Assembly: GCF_016862935.1 (NCBI RefSeq)
Contig: NZ_BONX01000012.1
Location: forward strand, 124,001-188,000
DNA length: 64,000 nucleotides
DNA from: Plantactinospora mayteni
Lineage (GTDB): Bacteria; Actinomycetota; Actinomycetes; Mycobacteriales; Micromonosporaceae
Direction: 5' to 3'
A model generated the notes under the pieces. The model had not been told where the DNA came from and did not search any database. It saw only the letters and a program-made list of their open reading frames with translations. Of this stretch, positions 6,372 to 14,535 are shown piece by piece (the first letter of the stretch is position 1; each line of letters opens with the position of its first letter). The position numbers and the translations under genes were made by a program.

Positions 6372-7115
6372 GTGAAGGGTCTGCTCCGACCGGCTCGCCG
6401 AACCACCCTCGCCGACGACGTCTACGAGTCGGTACGAGCCCTCGTGATGGACCACGCCGTGGCCCCCGGCGAGCGGATCAACATCGACGCGCTGGCCCGC
6501 CGGTTGGAGGTGTCGCCGACCCCGGTCCGCGAGGCCCTGGCCCGGCTGGAGTCCGACGGGCTGGTCCGGAAACGGCCGCTGGTCGGTTACACCGCCGCAC
6601 CGCTGCTCACCCGGACCGAGTTCGACGAGCTGGTGGAGATGCGGCTGATCCTGGAGACCGCCTCGGCGCGGCGGGTGGCCGAACGGTTCGCCGGGCAGCG
6701 CACCGGCGGCGACACCAACAGCGGAGACGGTGGCGGTGAGGCGTCGGCCGGGCTCGCCGGCGAGCTGGCCGAACTCCGCCGCGAGGCCGAGCTGCCCGAC
6801 CAGATGCCCGGGACCGAGGGCTTCGCCGCGATAGCCGCGTTCACCGCCCAGGATGCCCGCTTCCACCACCTGCTCGCCGAACGCTCCGGCAACCGGATGC
6901 TGCACGCGGCCGTGGTCCGGCTCCGCGCCCACCTGCACCTGTTCCGGCTGCACTTCCCCACCGCGCACTATGGGACCAGCGCCCGGGAGCACCTGCGGAT
7001 CGTCGACGCGATCGGCACCGGCGACCCGGACGCCGCCGGCACCGCCATCCGGGACCACCTGCTCGCCGCCGCCGACCGGCACCTGCCGTTCTTCCAAGGA
7101 AACCGATGCGGATAG
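6372..7115 (+). CDS. GntR/FadR-family (FCD) regulator of the lactate operon
   Basis: 247 aa from a GTG at 6372. The open frame extends upstream, but the residues there are low-complexity. The N-terminal winged helix contains LADDVYESVRALVMDH and the recognition segment LARRLEVSPTPVREALARLESDGLV (about residues 15-75). The C-terminal FCD ligand domain shows FDELVEMRLILETASARRVAER, DARFHHLLAERSGNRML and HLRIVDAIGTGDPDAA, whose Asp/His residues usually bind a metal that holds a carboxylate effector. A Gly/Glu-rich insert sits near residues 115-145. The stop overlaps the lutA start by ten bases, so co-translation and control of lutABC by lactate or a related acid are inferred. Confidence 0.88.
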   Translation: MKGLLRPARRTTLADDVYESVRALVMDHAVAPGERINIDALARRLEVSPTPVREALARLESDGLVRKRPLVGYTAAPLLTRTEFDELVEMRLILETASARRVAERFAGQRTGGDTNSGDGGGEASAGLAGELAELRREAELPDQMPGTEGFAAIAAFTAQDARFHHLLAERSGNRMLHAAVVRLRAHLHLFRLHFPTAHYGTSAREHLRIVDAIGTGDPDAAGTAIRDHLLAAADRHLPFFQGNRCG

Positions 7116-7849
7116 CCCTCTTCGTGACCTGCGTCAACGACCTGGTCTACCCGGCCACCGGCCGGGCCGTGGTACGCGTACTGGAGCGGCTCGGCCACAC
7201 CGTCGAGTTTCCGGCCGAGCAGTCCTGCTGCGGGCAGATGCACGCCAACAGCGGCTACCGGGCCGAGGCGCTGCCCCTGGTACGCAACTTCGTCGACACC
7301 TTCGGCCGGTACGACGCCGTGGTGGCCCCGTCCGGCTCGTGCGTGGCGATGGTGCGGGAGTCGTACCCCCGGCTCGCCGGCCCGGATCCGGGGCTGGCGG
7401 CGGCGGTCGCCGACCTCGCGCCCCGGGTGCACGAACTCTCCGAGCTGCTGGTCGACGTGCTCGGGGTGACCGACGTCGGTGCCGCCTTCCCGCACCGGGT
7501 GACCTACCACCCGACCTGCCACGGACTGCGGATGCTGCGGCTCGGTGACCGCCCGCTGCGGCTGCTCCGGGCGGTACGCGGGCTGGACCTGGTGGCGCTG
7601 CCCGGTGCCGAGGAGTGCTGCGGCTTCGGCGGCACGTTCGCGGTGAAGAACGCCGACGTCTCGGCGGCGATGCTGGCCGACAAGTGCGCGGCGGTCTGCG
7701 ACACCGGGGCGGCGTACGTGGCGGCGGCCGACAACTCCTGCCTGGCGCACATCGGCGGCGGCCTGTCCCGGCGCGGCGGCGGGCGGCCGGCCGGACCCCG
7801 CGCCATCCACTACGCGGAGATCCTGGCGAACACCGGGGAGCGGGCGTGA
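7106..7849 (+). CDS. lutA: Lactate utilization protein A, cysteine-rich Fe-S subunit
   Basis: 247 aa. It carries two CCG domains: QSCCGQMHANSGY near residue 40 and EECCGFGGTFAVKN near 170, each ligating an Fe-S centre as in glycolate oxidase and heterodisulfide reductase subunits. In Bacillus the LutABC complex oxidises L-lactate to pyruvate in the cytoplasm. The opening MRIALFVTCVNDLVYP is typical of LutA/YkgE. The gene starts ten bases inside the regulator and is followed by a 139-base gap with two hairpin repeats before lutB. Confidence 0.93.
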   Translation: MRIALFVTCVNDLVYPATGRAVVRVLERLGHTVEFPAEQSCCGQMHANSGYRAEALPLVRNFVDTFGRYDAVVAPSGSCVAMVRESYPRLAGPDPGLAAAVADLAPRVHELSELLVDVLGVTDVGAAFPHRVTYHPTCHGLRMLRLGDRPLRLLRAVRGLDLVALPGAEECCGFGGTFAVKNADVSAAMLADKCAAVCDTGAAYVAAADNSCLAHIGGGLSRRGGGRPAGPRAIHYAEILANTGERA

Positions 7850-7988: not shown

Positions 7989-9464
7989 ATGACCGCGGGT
8001 ACCGGGAACATCGTGGCGCCGCTGCCGTTTCCGACGGCGGCCCGGCGCGAACTCGCCGACGGGCAACTCCGGGCCAACCTGCGCCGGGCCACCCACACGA
8101 TCCGGGACAAGCGGCTCCGGGTGGTCGGCGAGGTGCCGGACTGGGAGGCGCTGCGCCGCTCCGGTGCGGCGATCAAGGACGACGTACTGGCCCGCCTGCC
8201 GGAGCTGCTGGAACAGTTCGAGGCCGCCGCCACCGCCGCCGGGGCCACCGTGCACTGGGCCCGGGACTCGGCCGAGGCGTGCGCGGTGGTCACCGAGCTG
8301 GTCCGGCGGACCGGCAGCACCGAGGTCGTCAAGGTCAAGTCGATGGCCACCCAGGAGATCGGCCTCAACGAGGCGCTCGCCGAGGCCGGCATCGCGGCGG
8401 TCGAGACCGACCTGGCCGAGCTGATCGTGCAGCTCGCCGACGACACCCCGTCACACATCCTGGTACCGGCGATCCACTACAACCGGCGGCAGATCCGGGA
8501 CATCTTCGCCAGCCGGATGCCCGGGGTCGACCTCGACGCGCTCACCGACGACCCACCGGCGCTCGCCGAGGCGGCCCGCCGGCACCTGCGGGCGAAGTTC
8601 CTCGGTGCGAAGGTGGCGATCTCCGGCGCCAACTTCGCGATCGCCGAGACCGGGACCCTGGCGGTGGTGGAGTCCGAGGGCAACGGCCGGATGTGCCTGA
8701 CCCTGCCGGAGACGCTGATCTCGGTGGTGGGCGTGGAGAAGCTGCTGCCGACCTTCCGCGACCTGGAGGTCTTCCTGCAACTGCTGCCCCGCTCCTCGAC
8801 CGGCGAGCGGATGAACCCGTACACCTCGCTCTGGACCGGGGTCACTGCCGGGGACGGGCCGCAGACGATGCACATCGTGCTGGTCGACAACGGGCGTACC
8901 GAGACGCTGGCCGATCCGGTGGGGCGGCAGGCGCTGCGCTGCATCCGCTGCTCCGCCTGCCTGAACGTCTGCCCGGTCTACGAGCGGGTCGGCGGGCACG
9001 CGTACGGGTCGGTCTATCCGGGCCCGATCGGCGCGATCCTGTCGCCGCAGCTCACCGGCCCGGACTCGGGCGCGAACCGCACCCTGCCGTACGCCTCGAC
9101 GCTCTGCGGCGCCTGCTTCGACGCCTGCCCGGTCCGGATCGACATCCCCGAAGTACTCGTGCACCTGCGCCAGCGTGGCGTGGACGCGCGCCGGGGCCGC
9201 CCGTCGGCCGAACGTACCGCGATGCGGGCGCTGTCCTGGACGATGCGGGACCGCCGCCGGTACGCCGCCGCGCTCCGGGCCGCCCGACGCGGCGCCGCCC
9301 CGCTGCGCCTGGTCACCGGCCGACGCGGTCAGGTACGCCGACTGCCGTGGCCGCTGTCGGCCTGGACCGCCAGCCGGGACGCCCCGTTGCCGGCCAGCCA
9401 GACGTTCCGGGACTGGTGGGCCGGGCGGGAGCGGACGAGCGAGAAGGAGGCGGGCGGGTGGTGA
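7989..9464 (+). CDS. lutB: Lactate utilization protein B, ferredoxin-type subunit
   Basis: 491 aa with a GGAAGGAG site ten bases before ATG 7989. The LUD/DUF162 domain fills residues about 60-300 (VKVKSMATQEIGLNEAL, NFAIAETGTLAVVESEGNGRM). Two 4Fe-4S motifs follow: CIRCSACLNVCPVY near 318 and CGACFDACPVRIDIP near 378. The C-terminal Arg-rich tail ends in a helix with W residues. It should pass electrons between LutA/LutC and the respiratory chain. Its stop overlaps the lutC start. Confidence 0.94.
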   Translation: MTAGTGNIVAPLPFPTAARRELADGQLRANLRRATHTIRDKRLRVVGEVPDWEALRRSGAAIKDDVLARLPELLEQFEAAATAAGATVHWARDSAEACAVVTELVRRTGSTEVVKVKSMATQEIGLNEALAEAGIAAVETDLAELIVQLADDTPSHILVPAIHYNRRQIRDIFASRMPGVDLDALTDDPPALAEAARRHLRAKFLGAKVAISGANFAIAETGTLAVVESEGNGRMCLTLPETLISVVGVEKLLPTFRDLEVFLQLLPRSSTGERMNPYTSLWTGVTAGDGPQTMHIVLVDNGRTETLADPVGRQALRCIRCSACLNVCPVYERVGGHAYGSVYPGPIGAILSPQLTGPDSGANRTLPYASTLCGACFDACPVRIDIPEVLVHLRQRGVDARRGRPSAERTAMRALSWTMRDRRRYAAALRAARRGAAPLRLVTGRRGQVRRLPWPLSAWTASRDAPLPASQTFRDWWAGRERTSEKEAGGW

Positions 9465-10210
9465 CGGTGCCCAGTTCGGCCCGGGAGGAGATCCTGGCCC
9501 GGATCCGGGCCGTTCGGCCCAGCGGACCGGTGCCGGTGCCCCGGGACTACCGCACCGCCCCGGCCTCCGACACTCCGATGAACCTTTTTCAACCTGAACC
9601 GCACGGCGCCCACACACCGCGTCCGACCCTGCGGTCCGTCGGACCGCAAGGGGAGGTTGAAAAAGGTTCAATGGGGACACCGGCCGACGGGGAGCTGGTG
9701 GAGTTGCTGGTCGATCGGCTGGTCGACTACCGGGCCACGGTGCGCCGCTGCGGGCCACGGCAGGTGCCCGAGGCGCTCGCCGAGTTGCTGGGCGAGGTGC
9801 CGACCGTGGTCGTACCCGGGCCGGCGCCGGCGGAGTGGCTGTCGGCGTACCTCGGCCGGATCCGCCGGGACGGCGACCCGGACCCGCTGACGGTGGCCGA
9901 CCTCGACGCGCCGGGCGTGGCCGTGGTCACCGGCTGCGCGGTGGCGATCGCGCAGACCGGCACGCTGCTGCTGGACGGCGGCCCGGACCAGGGACGCCGG
10001 CTGCTCAGCCTGGTACCCGACCGCCACCTCTGCGTGGTCCGCGCCACCCAGGTGGCCGGCGGGGTGCCGGAGGCGCTCGCCCGGCTCGCCGACCCGACCC
10101 GGCCGATCACCCTGGTCTCCGGGCCGTCGGCGACCAGCGACATCGAACTCGACCGGGTGGAGGGCGTGCACGGGCCACGCCGCCTGGACGTGCTGGTGGT
10201 CACCGACTGA
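9458..10210 (+). CDS. lutC: Lactate utilization protein C with an in-frame palindrome insertion
   Basis: 250 aa from GTG 9458, seven bases after AGGAGG; GTG 9461 is equally in frame. It overlaps lutB by seven bases. The LUD domain shows VTVADLDAPGVAVVTGCAVAIAQTGTLLL and VSGPSATSDIELDRVEGVHGP, close to LutC/YkgG. Residues about 41-71 are encoded by a 92-bp palindromic element (9579-9670) that keeps the frame open. Without it the protein would be near 220 aa, the usual size. The insert lies between the N-terminal helix and the LUD core, a site likely to tolerate a loop, so the enzyme is probably still functional. Confidence 0.9.
   Translation: MVTVPSSAREEILARIRAVRPSGPVPVPRDYRTAPASDTPMNLFQPEPHGAHTPRPTLRSVGPQGEVEKGSMGTPADGELVELLVDRLVDYRATVRRCGPRQVPEALAELLGEVPTVVVPGPAPAEWLSAYLGRIRRDGDPDPLTVADLDAPGVAVVTGCAVAIAQTGTLLLDGGPDQGRRLLSLVPDRHLCVVRATQVAGGVPEALARLADPTRPITLVSGPSATSDIELDRVEGVHGPRRLDVLVVTD
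9579..9670. repeat. 92-bp coding palindromic (MITE/RPE-like) element inside lutC
   Basis: TGAACCTTTTTCAACCT at 9579-9595 is the exact reverse complement of 9654-9670. A second perfect stem (TGCGGTCC at 9630-9637, GGACCGCA at 9641-9648, three-base loop) lies inside. The element's A/T-rich ends contrast with the surrounding gene. It is read through as about 30 extra residues of LutC with no stop or frameshift. No clear target-site duplication is visible. The architecture resembles Rickettsia palindromic elements or a small non-autonomous insertion; the family is not identified. Confidence 0.85.
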
Positions 10211-10261: not shown

Positions 10262-10864
10262 TCAGTTCGCCGCGACCCGCTCGGCGCGGCGGGCGGCGAC
10301 GTGCTCCACCAGGGCGACCAGGACCTCCTTGCCGGACTGCCGGCTGCGCGCGTCGCAGAGCACCACCGGCACGTCCGGATCCAGGTCGAGCGCGCTGCGC
10401 ACCGCCTCGACACCGAACCGCTTGGCCCCGTCGAAACAGTTGACCCCGACCACGAACGGGATGCCCCGGCGTTCGAAGTAGTCGACCGACGGGAAGCAGT
10501 CGGCGAGCCGCCGGGTGTCGGCGAGCACCACCGCGCCGAGCGCGCCGAACGCCAGCTCGTCCCAGAGGAACCAGAACCGGTCCTGCCCCGGCGTACCGAA
10601 GAGGTAGACCTGGAGATCCTCGTTGATGGTGATCCGCCCGAAGTCCATCGCGACGGTGGTGGTCTGCTTGCCCTCCACGCCGTAGAGGTCGTCGGTGCCG
10701 GACCCGGCGTCGGTGAGCACCTCCTCGGTCTGCAACGGACGGATCTCGCTCACCGCGCCGACCAGGGTCGTCTTGCCGACCCCGAAGCCACCGGCGATCA
10801 GGATCTTCAGGGCGAGCGGGATCCGCCGCTTCGCCACCGGCTGGTCAGAGAGCCCGGAGTCCAT
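10262..10864 (-). CDS. cvnD: Conservon GTP-binding protein CvnD
   Basis: 200 aa Ras/MglA-like small GTPase. The P-loop GGFGVGKT is at residues 25-32, the switch segment contains TTTVAMDFGRI, the Walker B-like element is LFGTPGQDRFWF, and VNCFDGAKRF occupies the NKxD position, degenerate as in this family. In Streptomyces conservons the four proteins form a membrane-associated complex compared with eukaryotic GPCR signalling. The start overlaps cvnC by 20 bases, so translation is coupled. It is convergent with lutC across 51 bases. Confidence 0.92.
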   Translation of the reverse strand: MDSGLSDQPVAKRRIPLALKILIAGGFGVGKTTLVGAVSEIRPLQTEEVLTDAGSGTDDLYGVEGKQTTTVAMDFGRITINEDLQVYLFGTPGQDRFWFLWDELAFGALGAVVLADTRRLADCFPSVDYFERRGIPFVVGVNCFDGAKRFGVEAVRSALDLDPDVPVVLCDARSRQSGKEVLVALVEHVAARRAERVAAN

Positions 10865-11237
10865 TGACCACCGCCTTGAGGATGTCGTCGTCGGGGAACT
10901 GGCGCGAGGTGGGTGGGTCGTACATCGAGATCCGGCCGCTGGTGAGCAGGTCGCCGAGGAGAACCCGGACCACCCCCACCGGCAGGTTGAGATCGGCGGC
11001 GAGATCGGCGACGGTGATCGGCTGCTGCGCCCGCGCGATGATCGCCCGCTGTTCCGGCTGCGGCTGCGGACCGTCGTCGCCGTCCTCCTCCGGCGGCCCG
11101 GCCACCACGAACGCCATCAGGTCGAACCGGCCCGCCGACGGCTGGACCCGACCACCGGTCACCGTGTACGGCCGGACCACCGGCCCGGCGTCGTCGTCCA
11201 GCCAGTCGTGGTGCGGTCCGGGTGCGTCACTCCGCAT
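10845..11237 (-). CDS. cvnC: Conservon DUF742 protein CvnC
   Basis: 130 aa. It shows the DUF742 pattern VVRPYTVTGGRV at residues about 20-31, followed by a winged-helix-like region (ITVADLAADLNLPVGVVRVLLGDLLTSGRI) and the terminal PDDDILKAVVNGLRAL. The family has no known catalysis; in conservons it partners the roadblock protein and the GTPase. Its start lies 11 bases inside cvnB and its end 20 bases inside cvnD. No separate ribosome site is evident, in keeping with coupled translation. Confidence 0.92.
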   Translation of the reverse strand: MRSDAPGPHHDWLDDDAGPVVRPYTVTGGRVQPSAGRFDLMAFVVAGPPEEDGDDGPQPQPEQRAIIARAQQPITVADLAADLNLPVGVVRVLLGDLLTSGRISMYDPPTSRQFPDDDILKAVVNGLRAL

Positions 11238-11649
11238 CTGCCGGCGCCCGCGATGTTCGACTCGGCGCGGACAGGTTCTGCCCCACCCGGGTCACCAGCA
11301 TCGCCATCTCGTACGCGATCACGCCGATGTCCGACGCGGCACTGGCCAGTACGGCGAGACAGGCGCCCTGACCTGCGGCGGTGACGAAGAGGAAGGCGGA
11401 CTCCATCTCGATCACGGTCTGCCGGACCGGTCCCGCCTGGAAGTGTCGGCTGGCGCCCTTCGCCAGGCTCTGGAAGCCGGCCGCCATCGCCGCCATGTGT
11501 TCGGCGGCCTCCTGGGCCAGGTCCCGCGACGCGGCCATCAACAGACCGTCCGCCGAGAGCAGTACGGCCTGCTGCGCGGACGGTACGCGCTCCACGAGGT
11601 CGTCGAGCAGCCAACTGAGATCCGCACCCGGCTTCGTCGTGTGCACCAC
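11227..11649 (-). CDS. cvnB: Conservon roadblock/LC7 protein CvnB
   Basis: 140 aa from a GTG immediately after the cvnA stop codon. The roadblock/LC7 fold is recognised from LSWLLDDLVERVPSAQQAVLLSADGLLMAASRDL and the second half with QTVIEMESAFLFVTAAGQGACLAVLA. Roadblock proteins act as regulators of Ras-like GTPases, here presumably CvnD. The C-terminal 15 residues are polar and probably flexible. Zero spacing to cvnA and overlap with cvnC place it inside the operon. Confidence 0.93.
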   Translation of the reverse strand: MVHTTKPGADLSWLLDDLVERVPSAQQAVLLSADGLLMAASRDLAQEAAEHMAAMAAGFQSLAKGASRHFQAGPVRQTVIEMESAFLFVTAAGQGACLAVLASAASDIGVIAYEMAMLVTRVGQNLSAPSRTSRAPADAE

Positions 11650-14535
11650 TCACCCGTCCCCTTCAGAAGTCGTGACACCCGGATCGGCGACCCGGGCGGT
11701 GTCCTCGGCGGTGTCGCCGGGCGGCGTCTGGTCCTCGGCGTCCCGCCGTCCCCGCGCCGTGCCGGACTGCAACGCGGCCATCACCGCCCGGATCTGCTCC
11801 GGGGTACGCGGCTGCGGCTCGTCCGGCTCCCCGGCGCCGGTTCCGCCGGCAGCGGCGGACCGGTCGGAGCCGGCCACCGGTCCGTTGCGCAGTTGCGGGG
11901 CGAGACTCTTCTGCCGGATCCGCCGGGGCAGGCCGTCCGCGCCGACCGGGCCGGCGGCCGGGCGTACCGGGCCGGCACTGGCCCGGACCGCCGGGAGGAC
12001 GACGGTGTCGTCGTCCATCGCCGGCCGGGGCGCCGGCCCGGCGGGCGCCGACGGGCCGGCCGCTTCCACCGGAGCGGCGGTCGCCGGGGTGGCGGTCGCC
12101 GGGGTCATGGTGGCCGGAGTGGCAGTCGCCGGAGTGGCGGTCGCCGGGGTCGGGGTCGCGGTGGTCGGGGCGGCTGTGGTCGGGGCGGCTGCCGGATCGA
12201 TGCCGCGCCGCCGCAGCCCACCGGTCTTCGGCATCCGCACGCCGCCGGCCCGGCCGGTCTCCGGCCCGTCGTCGGGAGCGGCGCCACCCGGGCCGGCGGC
12301 GGAGTCGGCCGGCTCGGAGGTCGGCGCGTCCCGCGTGGTCCCGGCCCCGGTGAGCCGCTCTCCGCCGTCGGCCGACGGGGTCGGTTCCGGGGTCTCCGGG
12401 CGGCTCGCGGCGACCAGCGCCGCCAGGGCGGCACCCGCCTTGCGCCGGGGCCCGAGCCCGGTGGTCGAGTCGGGTTCGGTGTGCGGCTCGTCGCCGTCCG
12501 GGGAGACCCGGGCGGTCCGCCCGGGCCGCATCGGCAGTTCGATCGTCTCCGAGCCGTCCGCGCCACCGGCGATCCGGCCGGGACCGGTGCGCCGGGTCGT
12601 ACCGTCCGGCTCCGCGCCCGACGCGTCGCCCCGGTCGCCCGCCGAGCTGGAGGTGTCGGGTACCACGAGGTCACCGGGGATGAGCGCGACCGCCGTCACC
12701 CCGCCGTACGGGGAGGAACGCAACTGGACCCGTACCCCGTGCCGGGCGCCGAGCAGGGCGACCACGAACAGCCCGAGCCGGGCGCTGTTCGCCGGGTCGA
12801 AGTCCGGTGGGTCGGCCAGCCGGCGGTTCGCCTGGTCGAGCGCCTCGGCGGCCATGCCGAGGCCCCGGTCCTCGATCTCGATCGCGTACCCGTTGGAGAC
12901 CACCTGCCCGACGACCTGCACCCGGGTGTGCGGCGGCGAGAACGACGTCGCGTTCTCGATCAGCTCGGCGAGCAGGTGGATGACGTCGCCGACCGCCCGC
13001 CCGGCGGTGGCCGCAGGTGCCACCGTGACCAGGTCGACCCGGGCGTAGTCCTCGACCTCGGAGATCGCGCCCCGGATCACGTCCATCATGGAGACCGGGT
13101 TGCGCCAGCCCCGACCGGGCGCCGCCCCGGCGAGCACGACCAGGTCCTCGGCGTGCCGCCGCATCCGGGTGGCCATGTGGTCGAGCCGGAAGAGGTCCTC
13201 CAACTCGTCCGGCTGGGCCACCCGCCGCTCCATCCGGTCGAGCAGCGCGAGCTGGCGGTGCAGCAGGGTCTGGCTACGCCGGGCGATGTTGAGGAAGACG
13301 TCCCGGAGACCACGGCGCAGCGCGGCCTCGTCGATCGCCGACGCGATGGCGGTACGCTGCACCTCGCTGAACGCCTGGCCGACCTGGCCGATCTCGTCCT
13401 GCCCGTAGTCGAGCGGTGGCGCCTCGGTCTCGACGTCCACCTCCTCGCCCCTGCGCAGCCGCCCGACGACGTCGGGCAGCCGTTCGTCGGCCATGTTCAG
13501 CGCGGCGGCGCGCAGGCTGGTCAGCCGCCGGACCAGGGAGCGGCCGATCCGCAGCGCGATGACCGCCGAGAGCAGTACGGCGAGGAAGCCGACCAGGCCG
13601 GCGAGACCCAGCCGGAGCAGGATGCCGGCGGCCACCGGGCGGCTGCGCTCGGTGAGCGCCTCGGCACCGCTCAGCTCGAAGTCGCGCAGTTGCCGCTGGA
13701 CCGAGTCGTAGCTGCTCTGCCACTCCCGGGCGTCGACCGGCAGCGTGCCGCCGCCGCCCCGACCGATCAGGTTGTCCTCCATCTGGCGCAGCCGGACGTA
13801 CGCGTCCCCCTCGGTGAGCTGCTGGTATGCGACCCGCTCGGCGTCCGGCAACTCCGCGGTCGCCGCCGAGTAGAGGAACCGCTGGGTGCCGACGATCTGG
13901 ACGTACTGGGCGTGCTCGCCCGGCGCGAAGCGTCCCGTGCTGAACGCCCCGGCGAGCAGCGCGTCGGCCTGGGCCATGACCTCGCGGGCCCGGCCGAGTT
14001 CGGTCAGGCTCCGCGCCTCCCGGGCGAGCGTGTCGTCCGGCAGCGTGTTCAGCGCGGAGAAGGTCCGGAACGCGGCGTCGATCACCCCGCTGTAGAGGCC
14101 GAGCGCCCCACTGGCGTCGACGGTACGCCGGTCGATGAAGGTGCGTCCGGACCGCAGCGCGTCGATCGAGGTGAGCAGTTGGTCGATCCGGGCGTCGAGC
14201 AGCGCGCCGGTGGTGTCCCGCAGATCGGCGTCGGAGGTCCGGCGACGGAACTCGGCTATCGCCCGGTCGGTACGGGTCCGCTGGTCGGCGAGGGCCGTGG
14301 TGGCGGCCGGGTCGACCAGGTGCCGTACCGAGAGCCGCCGCTCCTGCTGCAACTCCACCACCAGCGTCTCGCCCGGCCGGCCGACCTCGTCCAGCAGGGT
14401 CTGGGCGGCCAGCAGACTCGACGCGGGCCCGACGGTGAGCGTGGTCGCGAAGATCCAGAGCGCCGACAACGCGAGGATCGGCACGGCGACCAGCGCGACG
14501 ATCTTCGAGCGGATCGGCCAGTTCTGGGTTTCCAT
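11650..14535 (-). CDS. cvnA: Conservon sensor histidine kinase-like protein CvnA
   Basis: 961 aa. A GAGG lies eight bases before the ATG. Membrane span one is at about residues 13-33, then an extracellular helical (nitrate/sulfonate-sensing-like) domain to about 310, span two at about 315-335 and a HAMP linker. The cytoplasmic part has LDHMATRMRRHAEDLVVL in place of a classical H-box and a HATPase with LIENATSFSPPHT, EDRGLGM and NSARLGLFVVALLGARHG. The last 330 residues are Pro/Ala/Thr-rich and disordered, with TATPA-type tandem repeats coded at about 12070-12190. It heads the operon; the lower-GC stretch at 14690-14735 is the best place for the promoter. Confidence 0.92.
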   Translation of the reverse strand: METQNWPIRSKIVALVAVPILALSALWIFATTLTVGPASSLLAAQTLLDEVGRPGETLVVELQQERRLSVRHLVDPAATTALADQRTRTDRAIAEFRRRTSDADLRDTTGALLDARIDQLLTSIDALRSGRTFIDRRTVDASGALGLYSGVIDAAFRTFSALNTLPDDTLAREARSLTELGRAREVMAQADALLAGAFSTGRFAPGEHAQYVQIVGTQRFLYSAATAELPDAERVAYQQLTEGDAYVRLRQMEDNLIGRGGGGTLPVDAREWQSSYDSVQRQLRDFELSGAEALTERSRPVAAGILLRLGLAGLVGFLAVLLSAVIALRIGRSLVRRLTSLRAAALNMADERLPDVVGRLRRGEEVDVETEAPPLDYGQDEIGQVGQAFSEVQRTAIASAIDEAALRRGLRDVFLNIARRSQTLLHRQLALLDRMERRVAQPDELEDLFRLDHMATRMRRHAEDLVVLAGAAPGRGWRNPVSMMDVIRGAISEVEDYARVDLVTVAPAATAGRAVGDVIHLLAELIENATSFSPPHTRVQVVGQVVSNGYAIEIEDRGLGMAAEALDQANRRLADPPDFDPANSARLGLFVVALLGARHGVRVQLRSSPYGGVTAVALIPGDLVVPDTSSSAGDRGDASGAEPDGTTRRTGPGRIAGGADGSETIELPMRPGRTARVSPDGDEPHTEPDSTTGLGPRRKAGAALAALVAASRPETPEPTPSADGGERLTGAGTTRDAPTSEPADSAAGPGGAAPDDGPETGRAGGVRMPKTGGLRRRGIDPAAAPTTAAPTTATPTPATATPATATPATMTPATATPATAAPVEAAGPSAPAGPAPRPAMDDDTVVLPAVRASAGPVRPAAGPVGADGLPRRIRQKSLAPQLRNGPVAGSDRSAAAGGTGAGEPDEPQPRTPEQIRAVMAALQSGTARGRRDAEDQTPPGDTAEDTARVADPGVTTSEGDG

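Follow-up and report, generated by a model that had tools for sequence, protein, structure and literature searches.

The lutC gene of Plantactinospora mayteni carries, in frame, a 92-bp palindromic segment that is very probably one copy of a MITE, moved in trans by an IS5-family helper, inserted at an ANT target without shifting the frame, passed by a sieve of selection and left to extend a linker of LutC. This reading is built on the copy number and flanks of the element, the empty sites at three genes, the open frames and the linker position, which were observed directly. The window (the whole stretch of 64,000 nucleotides that was analysed) contains a lutABC operon, identified from ORFs and Pfam matches, with the following features:

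7106..7849, plus strand: lutA, cysteine-rich CCG domain protein (ORF; PF02754, E 2e-33)
7989..9464, plus strand: lutB, LUD domain, 4Fe-4S, LutB_C (ORF; PF02589 and PF11870)
9461..10210, plus strand: lutC, 249 aa, GTG start overlapping the lutB stop, element inside (ORF; PF02589 LUD_dom, E 7e-18)
9579..9670, plus strand: 92-bp copy of the putative MITE, which with base 9578 makes up LutC residues 40-70 (repeat search, palindrome search)
9579..9595, plus strand: left terminal inverted repeat, TGAACCTTTTTCAACCT (palindrome search)
9654..9670, plus strand: right terminal inverted repeat, AGGTTGAAAAAGGTTCA (palindrome search)
9627..9651, plus strand: inner hairpin, 12 nt at 92%, with a perfect 9-bp core (palindrome search, folds)
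9577..9579, plus strand: left target triplet GAT, with N = A at 9578 (flank comparison)
9670..9672, plus strand: right target triplet AAT, with N = A at 9671 as the duplicated base (flank comparison)

The start of lutC was my own choice, namely the GTG overlapping the lutB stop, while the full ORF of this frame spans 8279-10210. A sequence-only reading of the window had described an element of 92 bp inside lutC, bounded by perfect terminal repeats of 17 nt, and this description was borne out: the two arms (9579-9595 and 9654-9670) are each 17 nt long, 100% complementary, and separated by 58 nt. The inner stem matches at 92% over its 12 nt and has a perfect core of 9 bp (TGCGGTCCG/CGGACCGCA, read off the sequence). 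Folding of the element gave a stability above that of 200/200 dinucleotide shuffles, with z -6.6 as DNA and z -6.5 as RNA. The frame of lutC runs through the element free of stops, as had also been claimed, and codons 40-70 are element-derived (MNLFQPEPHGAHTPRPTLRSVGPQGEVEKGS), so that LutC would be translated through the element as the stretch NLFQPEPHGAHTPR. The supposed lengthening of LutC by about 30 residues comes to 31, with 249 aa vs 212-234 aa in six same-genus orthologues, whose lengths were counted from a start that I set near a common N-terminal motif.

Searching the home genome, a 9.84 Mb draft in 123 contigs, confirmed the multi-copy matches that the sequence-only reading had expected of a nucleotide search: at least 104 copies or pieces were found, some of them broken, with differing flanks (96 copies, made up of 75 examined first and those of a second round, and 8 found later). 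The element of the window alone had at least 42 matches, itself included, with 40/185 candidates scored, and further copies came from a query with a different subfamily of the element. With up to one mismatch allowed, the home genome has 76 occurrences of the 15-nt arm on one strand and 78 on the other, compared with 0 and 0 for the reversed control, and the element is therefore not a product of chance. Exactly 92 bp was the length of 57/75 copies, and the lutC copy shares 97% identity with one of the others in the home genome. A search of relatives gave a match in 7/101 genomes, the home genome included, Plantactinospora endophytica NBRC 110450 has an exact 27-nt piece at three loci, and the arm is present in 58/350 genomes of the bacterial family (reversed control in 14 genomes). 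Rfam gave no match up to E 1 for positions 9400-9900 of the window. The segment is very probably one copy of a high-copy, non-autonomous MITE of Plantactinospora.

Several loci of this survey are worth recording. On contig C50 of the home genome, two MITE copies (locus L049, 984-1073 and 2178-2269) lie ~1.1 kb apart around one small gene and possibly form a composite unit with it; their reading as a 1.27-kb IS, with arms 1269 bp apart, was rejected, these being two separate MITEs beside an ordinary gene. Two further copies, on contig C4 (L026, 1503-1594 and 1614-1697), are in opposite orientation with 19 bp between them. Broken copies with one good end each were found in the home loci L063 (1492-1580) and L080 (1497-1574), and the left part of the former continues into an arm-like end. 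Long ORFs of genomes G147 (L148, 2638) and G237 (L149, 2602) share an identical arm-like 15-mer together with its immediate surroundings, which looks like a conserved gene rather than the MITE.

Target sites were compared for those 68/75 copies that have two readable ends. The flanks followed the pattern A-N-T before GAACC and after GGTTC, and the middle base N was the same on the two sides in 62/68 copies. Of the 68 left outer bases, 55 were A, 12 were G and one was T, the inner right base was A in 65/68 and the right T was present in 62/68, while 13/68 copies lacked A as left outer base despite having A as inner right base; the full triplet was equal in 42/68. From these counts it follows that only N is strictly duplicated and that the inner T and A are part of the element. 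Duplication of an ANT target is the rule of the ISL2 group, but the classical 3-bp form is not cleanly reproduced here. C was favoured before the target (45 of 68 copies) and G after it (50), and insertion would accordingly take place at ANT with these neighbours preferred. The site in the alcohol dehydrogenase gene described below agrees with this, as the two nearest relatives read ACGCT vs ACGT-element-TT in the home gene. Since one base is duplicated, insertion of a 92-bp copy lengthens a gene by 93 bp and the frame is kept, so that the phase of the target would decide the outcome for a protein.

Three outcomes would be expected. In the phase NTG-AAC-CTT-TTT the element would be open on two strands and add a 31-residue segment; in the phase with T first it would bring an immediate TGA, which would be harmless if the target T already starts a stop codon; and in the third phase it would bring an internal stop. 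All 7/7 home copies within genes were in phase 1, which is nearly forced because the gene finder cannot cross stops, and stops interrupt the other phases in most copies. Five of these seven have Pfam support, all in phase 1, while L253 and L057 have no Pfam match, and L057 (78 aa) is doubtful as a gene. The five proteins are:

LutC: segment at residues 40-70
HerA-like (DUF87) ATPase: segment at 495-525, ahead of the ATPase domain
NRPS: segment at 85-115, between carrier (2-61) and condensation (117-310) domains
Zinc alcohol dehydrogenase: segment at about 222-252, within the nucleotide-binding domain
MFS transporter: segment forms the C-terminal tail, with the element read on the other strand

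The consensus of phase 1, the usual open phase, codes for NLFQP...VEKGS, and because the arms are inverted repeats it has these ends in both orientations; diverged forms were NLLPP in the alcohol dehydrogenase copy and NPSPP in the L253 copy. Among the 75 copies, phase 1 was free of stops in 71 when read in sense and in 66 when read in antisense, and the other four phases were open in 6 to 14. When the interior of the window copy was shuffled with its arms fixed, phase 1 remained open in 76% of cases in sense, 66% in antisense and 49% in both, and the other phases never. An open frame is thus to be expected from the arms and a GC-rich interior and cannot be counted as a sign that coding was selected for; selection for the open frame is unproven, and adaptation need not be invoked.

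The position of copies relative to genes was assessed with a crude, home-made gene finder that was trained on the window and the fetched loci and cannot cross a stop; long open frames around some copies were not counted as genes. By these crude calls, 58 of 96 home copies were intergenic, 24 lay at a gene stop, 8 partly overlapped a gene and 6 were within genes, and one of the 8 later copies was within a gene, giving 7/104 in total. As 767/978 ANT sites in the window fall in called genes, copies inside genes are strongly depleted, and coding insertion is here a rare tolerated outcome and not the rule. Selection would purge most genic insertions, and those in the open phase that fall in flexible linkers and loops would remain. 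In relatives, 0/20 copies were within called genes; among 12 more (five of them weak matches, in other genera) there was one diverged in-frame copy, an old one close to where a GDSL lipase begins (N-terminal side) in a different Plantactinospora (genome G005, locus L265, 1511-1599).

For 16/24 stop-edge copies, again by crude calls, the target T was already the first base of the stop codon, and because the T-GA of the element rebuilds the stop, the protein is unchanged in those 16. In the other 8/24 the empty frame would extend 1-215 codons further, so that truncation is possible for some of these genes. Stop-codon sites account for 16/90 non-internal copies vs 8/211 sites in the window (p about 3e-7, crude calls), and with the strictest target pattern for 16/90 vs 1/11 (p 0.007). 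With 93 bp added, a phase open on two strands and the stop rebuilt on landing in a stop codon, the ends could make this a protein-safe element that spreads by sparing genes and in doing so seeds 31-residue segments, of which the copies in alcohol dehydrogenase and L265 would be old and retained; I consider this rather unlikely. Another idea is that the element acts chiefly as RNA, as a hairpin stabiliser or terminator, with coding insertions being accidental. The hairpin is indeed very stable, and 24/96 copies abut or overlap the 3' end of a called gene with one edge, but the listed flanks show no consistent T tract after the hairpin, which speaks against a classic terminator, and target choice together with neutrality can account for the stop-codon sites. 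An action mainly at the RNA level is unlikely.

Orthologues were then used to look for empty sites. The segment was absent in 20/20 aligned LutC orthologues, including those of six other Plantactinospora genomes, which is a result that the sequence-only reading had named as support for mobility; the 20 were drawn from 29 LutC loci, 8 being left out as the motif was not found and L095 because of a short contig, and none was seen with the segment in an alignment of all 29. The segment is thus not general in LutC orthologues, just as the lutC copy is not the only one. The site falls in a linker that precedes the LUD domain and differs between orthologues in both length and sequence, and two LutC proteins (L082 and L088) have long linkers with a sequence unrelated to the element. 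For alcohol dehydrogenase the segment was absent in 13/13 orthologues, one of which (L233) has a longer, unrelated loop, and the relatives in genomes G001 and G006 are 90-93% identical on either side of the segment. For the HerA-like protein it was absent in 2/2 full-length matches (G004 and G007).

Structure models were built from shallow alignments of 21 sequences for LutC and 14 for alcohol dehydrogenase. LutC residues 31-70 had a block confidence of 48-49, compared with 87-97 for residues 81-170, and weak stretches also occurred elsewhere, for example at 224-236. In the alcohol dehydrogenase model, residues 227-250 were below 50 and form the loop that joins a strand to a helix in the dehydrogenase fold, and residues 43-55 and 302-324 were likewise below 50; a PDB fold search with this model confirmed the dehydrogenase fold and gave nothing beyond it. 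Low confidence of the segment is partly expected, since the mere lack of homologues for an insert brings confidence down, but on these models the segment is likely disordered. In LutC it would extend the variable linker between an N-terminal helix and the LUD domain, and the insertion is probably neutral. Had the segment instead settled in this lineage as a working part of LutC that alters partner binding or regulation, the intact frame and the lack of a second full-length LutC among the home-genome matches listed would fit; the variability of the linker, the low model confidence and the 97% identity to another copy, which makes the insertion probably young, all point the other way, and I regard such a role as very unlikely.

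A candidate transposase came from one-ended GAGCC matches in a family-wide search, in the form of an IS in L147 (916 bp, AGT on either side). A second IS, in L140, has 917 bp, the flanks ACT/TTT and 87% identity to the first. Both belong to other genomes of the family and share the ends GAGCCTTTTTCAACCTGA with the MITE, the L147 IS matching it at 17/18 nt on the left and 15/18 nt on the right; unlike the MITE, each encodes a 260-aa DDE transposase (PF13359, E 6e-31, and PF13613), and the end motif differs, being GAGCC in the ISs and GAACC in the MITE. With the NCBIfam IS5 model the transposases scored 129 bits (L147) and 116 bits (L140), both under the cut-off of 140. MITE-like elements of 90 bp with AGCC ends were also found in L142 and L146. 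Matches to the L147-type transposase occurred in 7/7 Plantactinospora genomes at the search threshold, several of them broken, and the best match in each of the six other Plantactinospora genomes was 76-86% identical.

In the home genome no intact IS bearing these ends was found, the best full-length relative being 36% identical, and among the matches listed the close type was represented only by a 35-aa remnant (66%), next to distant relatives. Because the assembly is a draft of 123 contigs, a multi-copy IS could be missing from it. None of 24 home IS5-type transposase loci (19 PF01609, 5 PF13359) was flanked by GAACCTTTTTCAACC-like ends with up to 4 mismatches in 15. The transposase of L121 is near a MITE but not between such ends. 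Judging from the similarity of the ends, an IS5-family (DDE_Tnp_4) transposase of the L147 type may mobilise the MITE in trans by recognising GARCCTTTTTCA-type ends.

Prokaryotic IS5-family MITEs are short and non-autonomous, have IS-like terminal repeats and high copy numbers, and are mostly intergenic. The element resembles them in being 92 bp long and transposase-free, with perfect 17-nt arms, many independent sites and empty sites in relatives, and departs from them in that its 93 added bp keep the frame, TGA is rebuilt at stops and only the middle base of ANT is strictly duplicated. Frames of MITEs fused to genes are known for ERIC, the 107-bp form of Correia, YPAL and RPE (Rickettsia palindromic elements), the last of which fuse to genes unusually often, according to PMC10969869, PMC2229807 and PMC3733652. 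The contiguous frames that ERIC, the Correia 107-bp form and YPAL have fused to other ORFs (PMC2229807 and PMC10969869) are like those seen here, but according to those papers most of these repeats are A+T-rich with TA termini (YPAL being without TA), unlike the present element with its ANT target and GC-rich interior (76%).

The sequence-only reading had likened the segment to RPEs in its behaviour, and the likeness held as far as the element is multi-copy, missing from orthologues and read as protein, while its IS5-type ends and mostly intergenic copies qualify it. Going further and taking it for a member or true counterpart of the RPEs, persisting mainly as protein segments, would agree with a palindrome of about 100 bp that has one usual frame and peptide and sits in frame in unrelated proteins, much as RPEs of about 100-150 bp do (PMC2229807 and PMC10969869), in 19 genes by the account of a review (PMC2229807). 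Yet only 7/104 copies lie in called genes vs nearly half for RPEs (PMC10969869), the ends are IS5-like with ANT flanks, nothing matched in Rfam up to E 1, the host is a high-GC actinomycete, and an IS5-family helper is likely. Nothing points to kinship with the Rickettsia elements, the likeness being one of behaviour, and this origin is highly improbable. That LutC is just an ordinary longer variant with an inverted repeat due to chance or assembly is almost certainly wrong, for although linker length does vary among orthologues, it is refuted by at least 104 copies with differing flanks and by copies in Plantactinospora endophytica.

The element is best described as an IS5-type MITE with RPE-like coding insertions, and such elements are, as a kind, already known. 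A literature search by title found no such element in Micromonosporaceae, most subscription journals being outside the search. Titles of the papers listed on MITEs in Streptomyces and in actinobacteria at large pointed to none either, and no paper was listed on insertion sequences of Plantactinospora. Small mobile repeats that insert into coding sequence are known best from the reduced intracellular genomes of Rickettsia; here the same outcome is seen in an actinomycete whose genome is large and GC-rich, and both a likely transposase and cleanly empty sites in close relatives are at hand. Ordinary enzymes (LutC, alcohol dehydrogenase, an NRPS linker) thus allow a test of whether these segments do harm, are put to use or have no effect, and some caution is due with several predicted proteins of this strain, which contain transposon-derived residues. 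Downstream of lutC, on the minus strand of the window (10262-14535), a large ORF of 961 aa lies in a run with three small ORFs of 140, 130 and 200 aa, and this run presumably resembles an actinomycete conservon.
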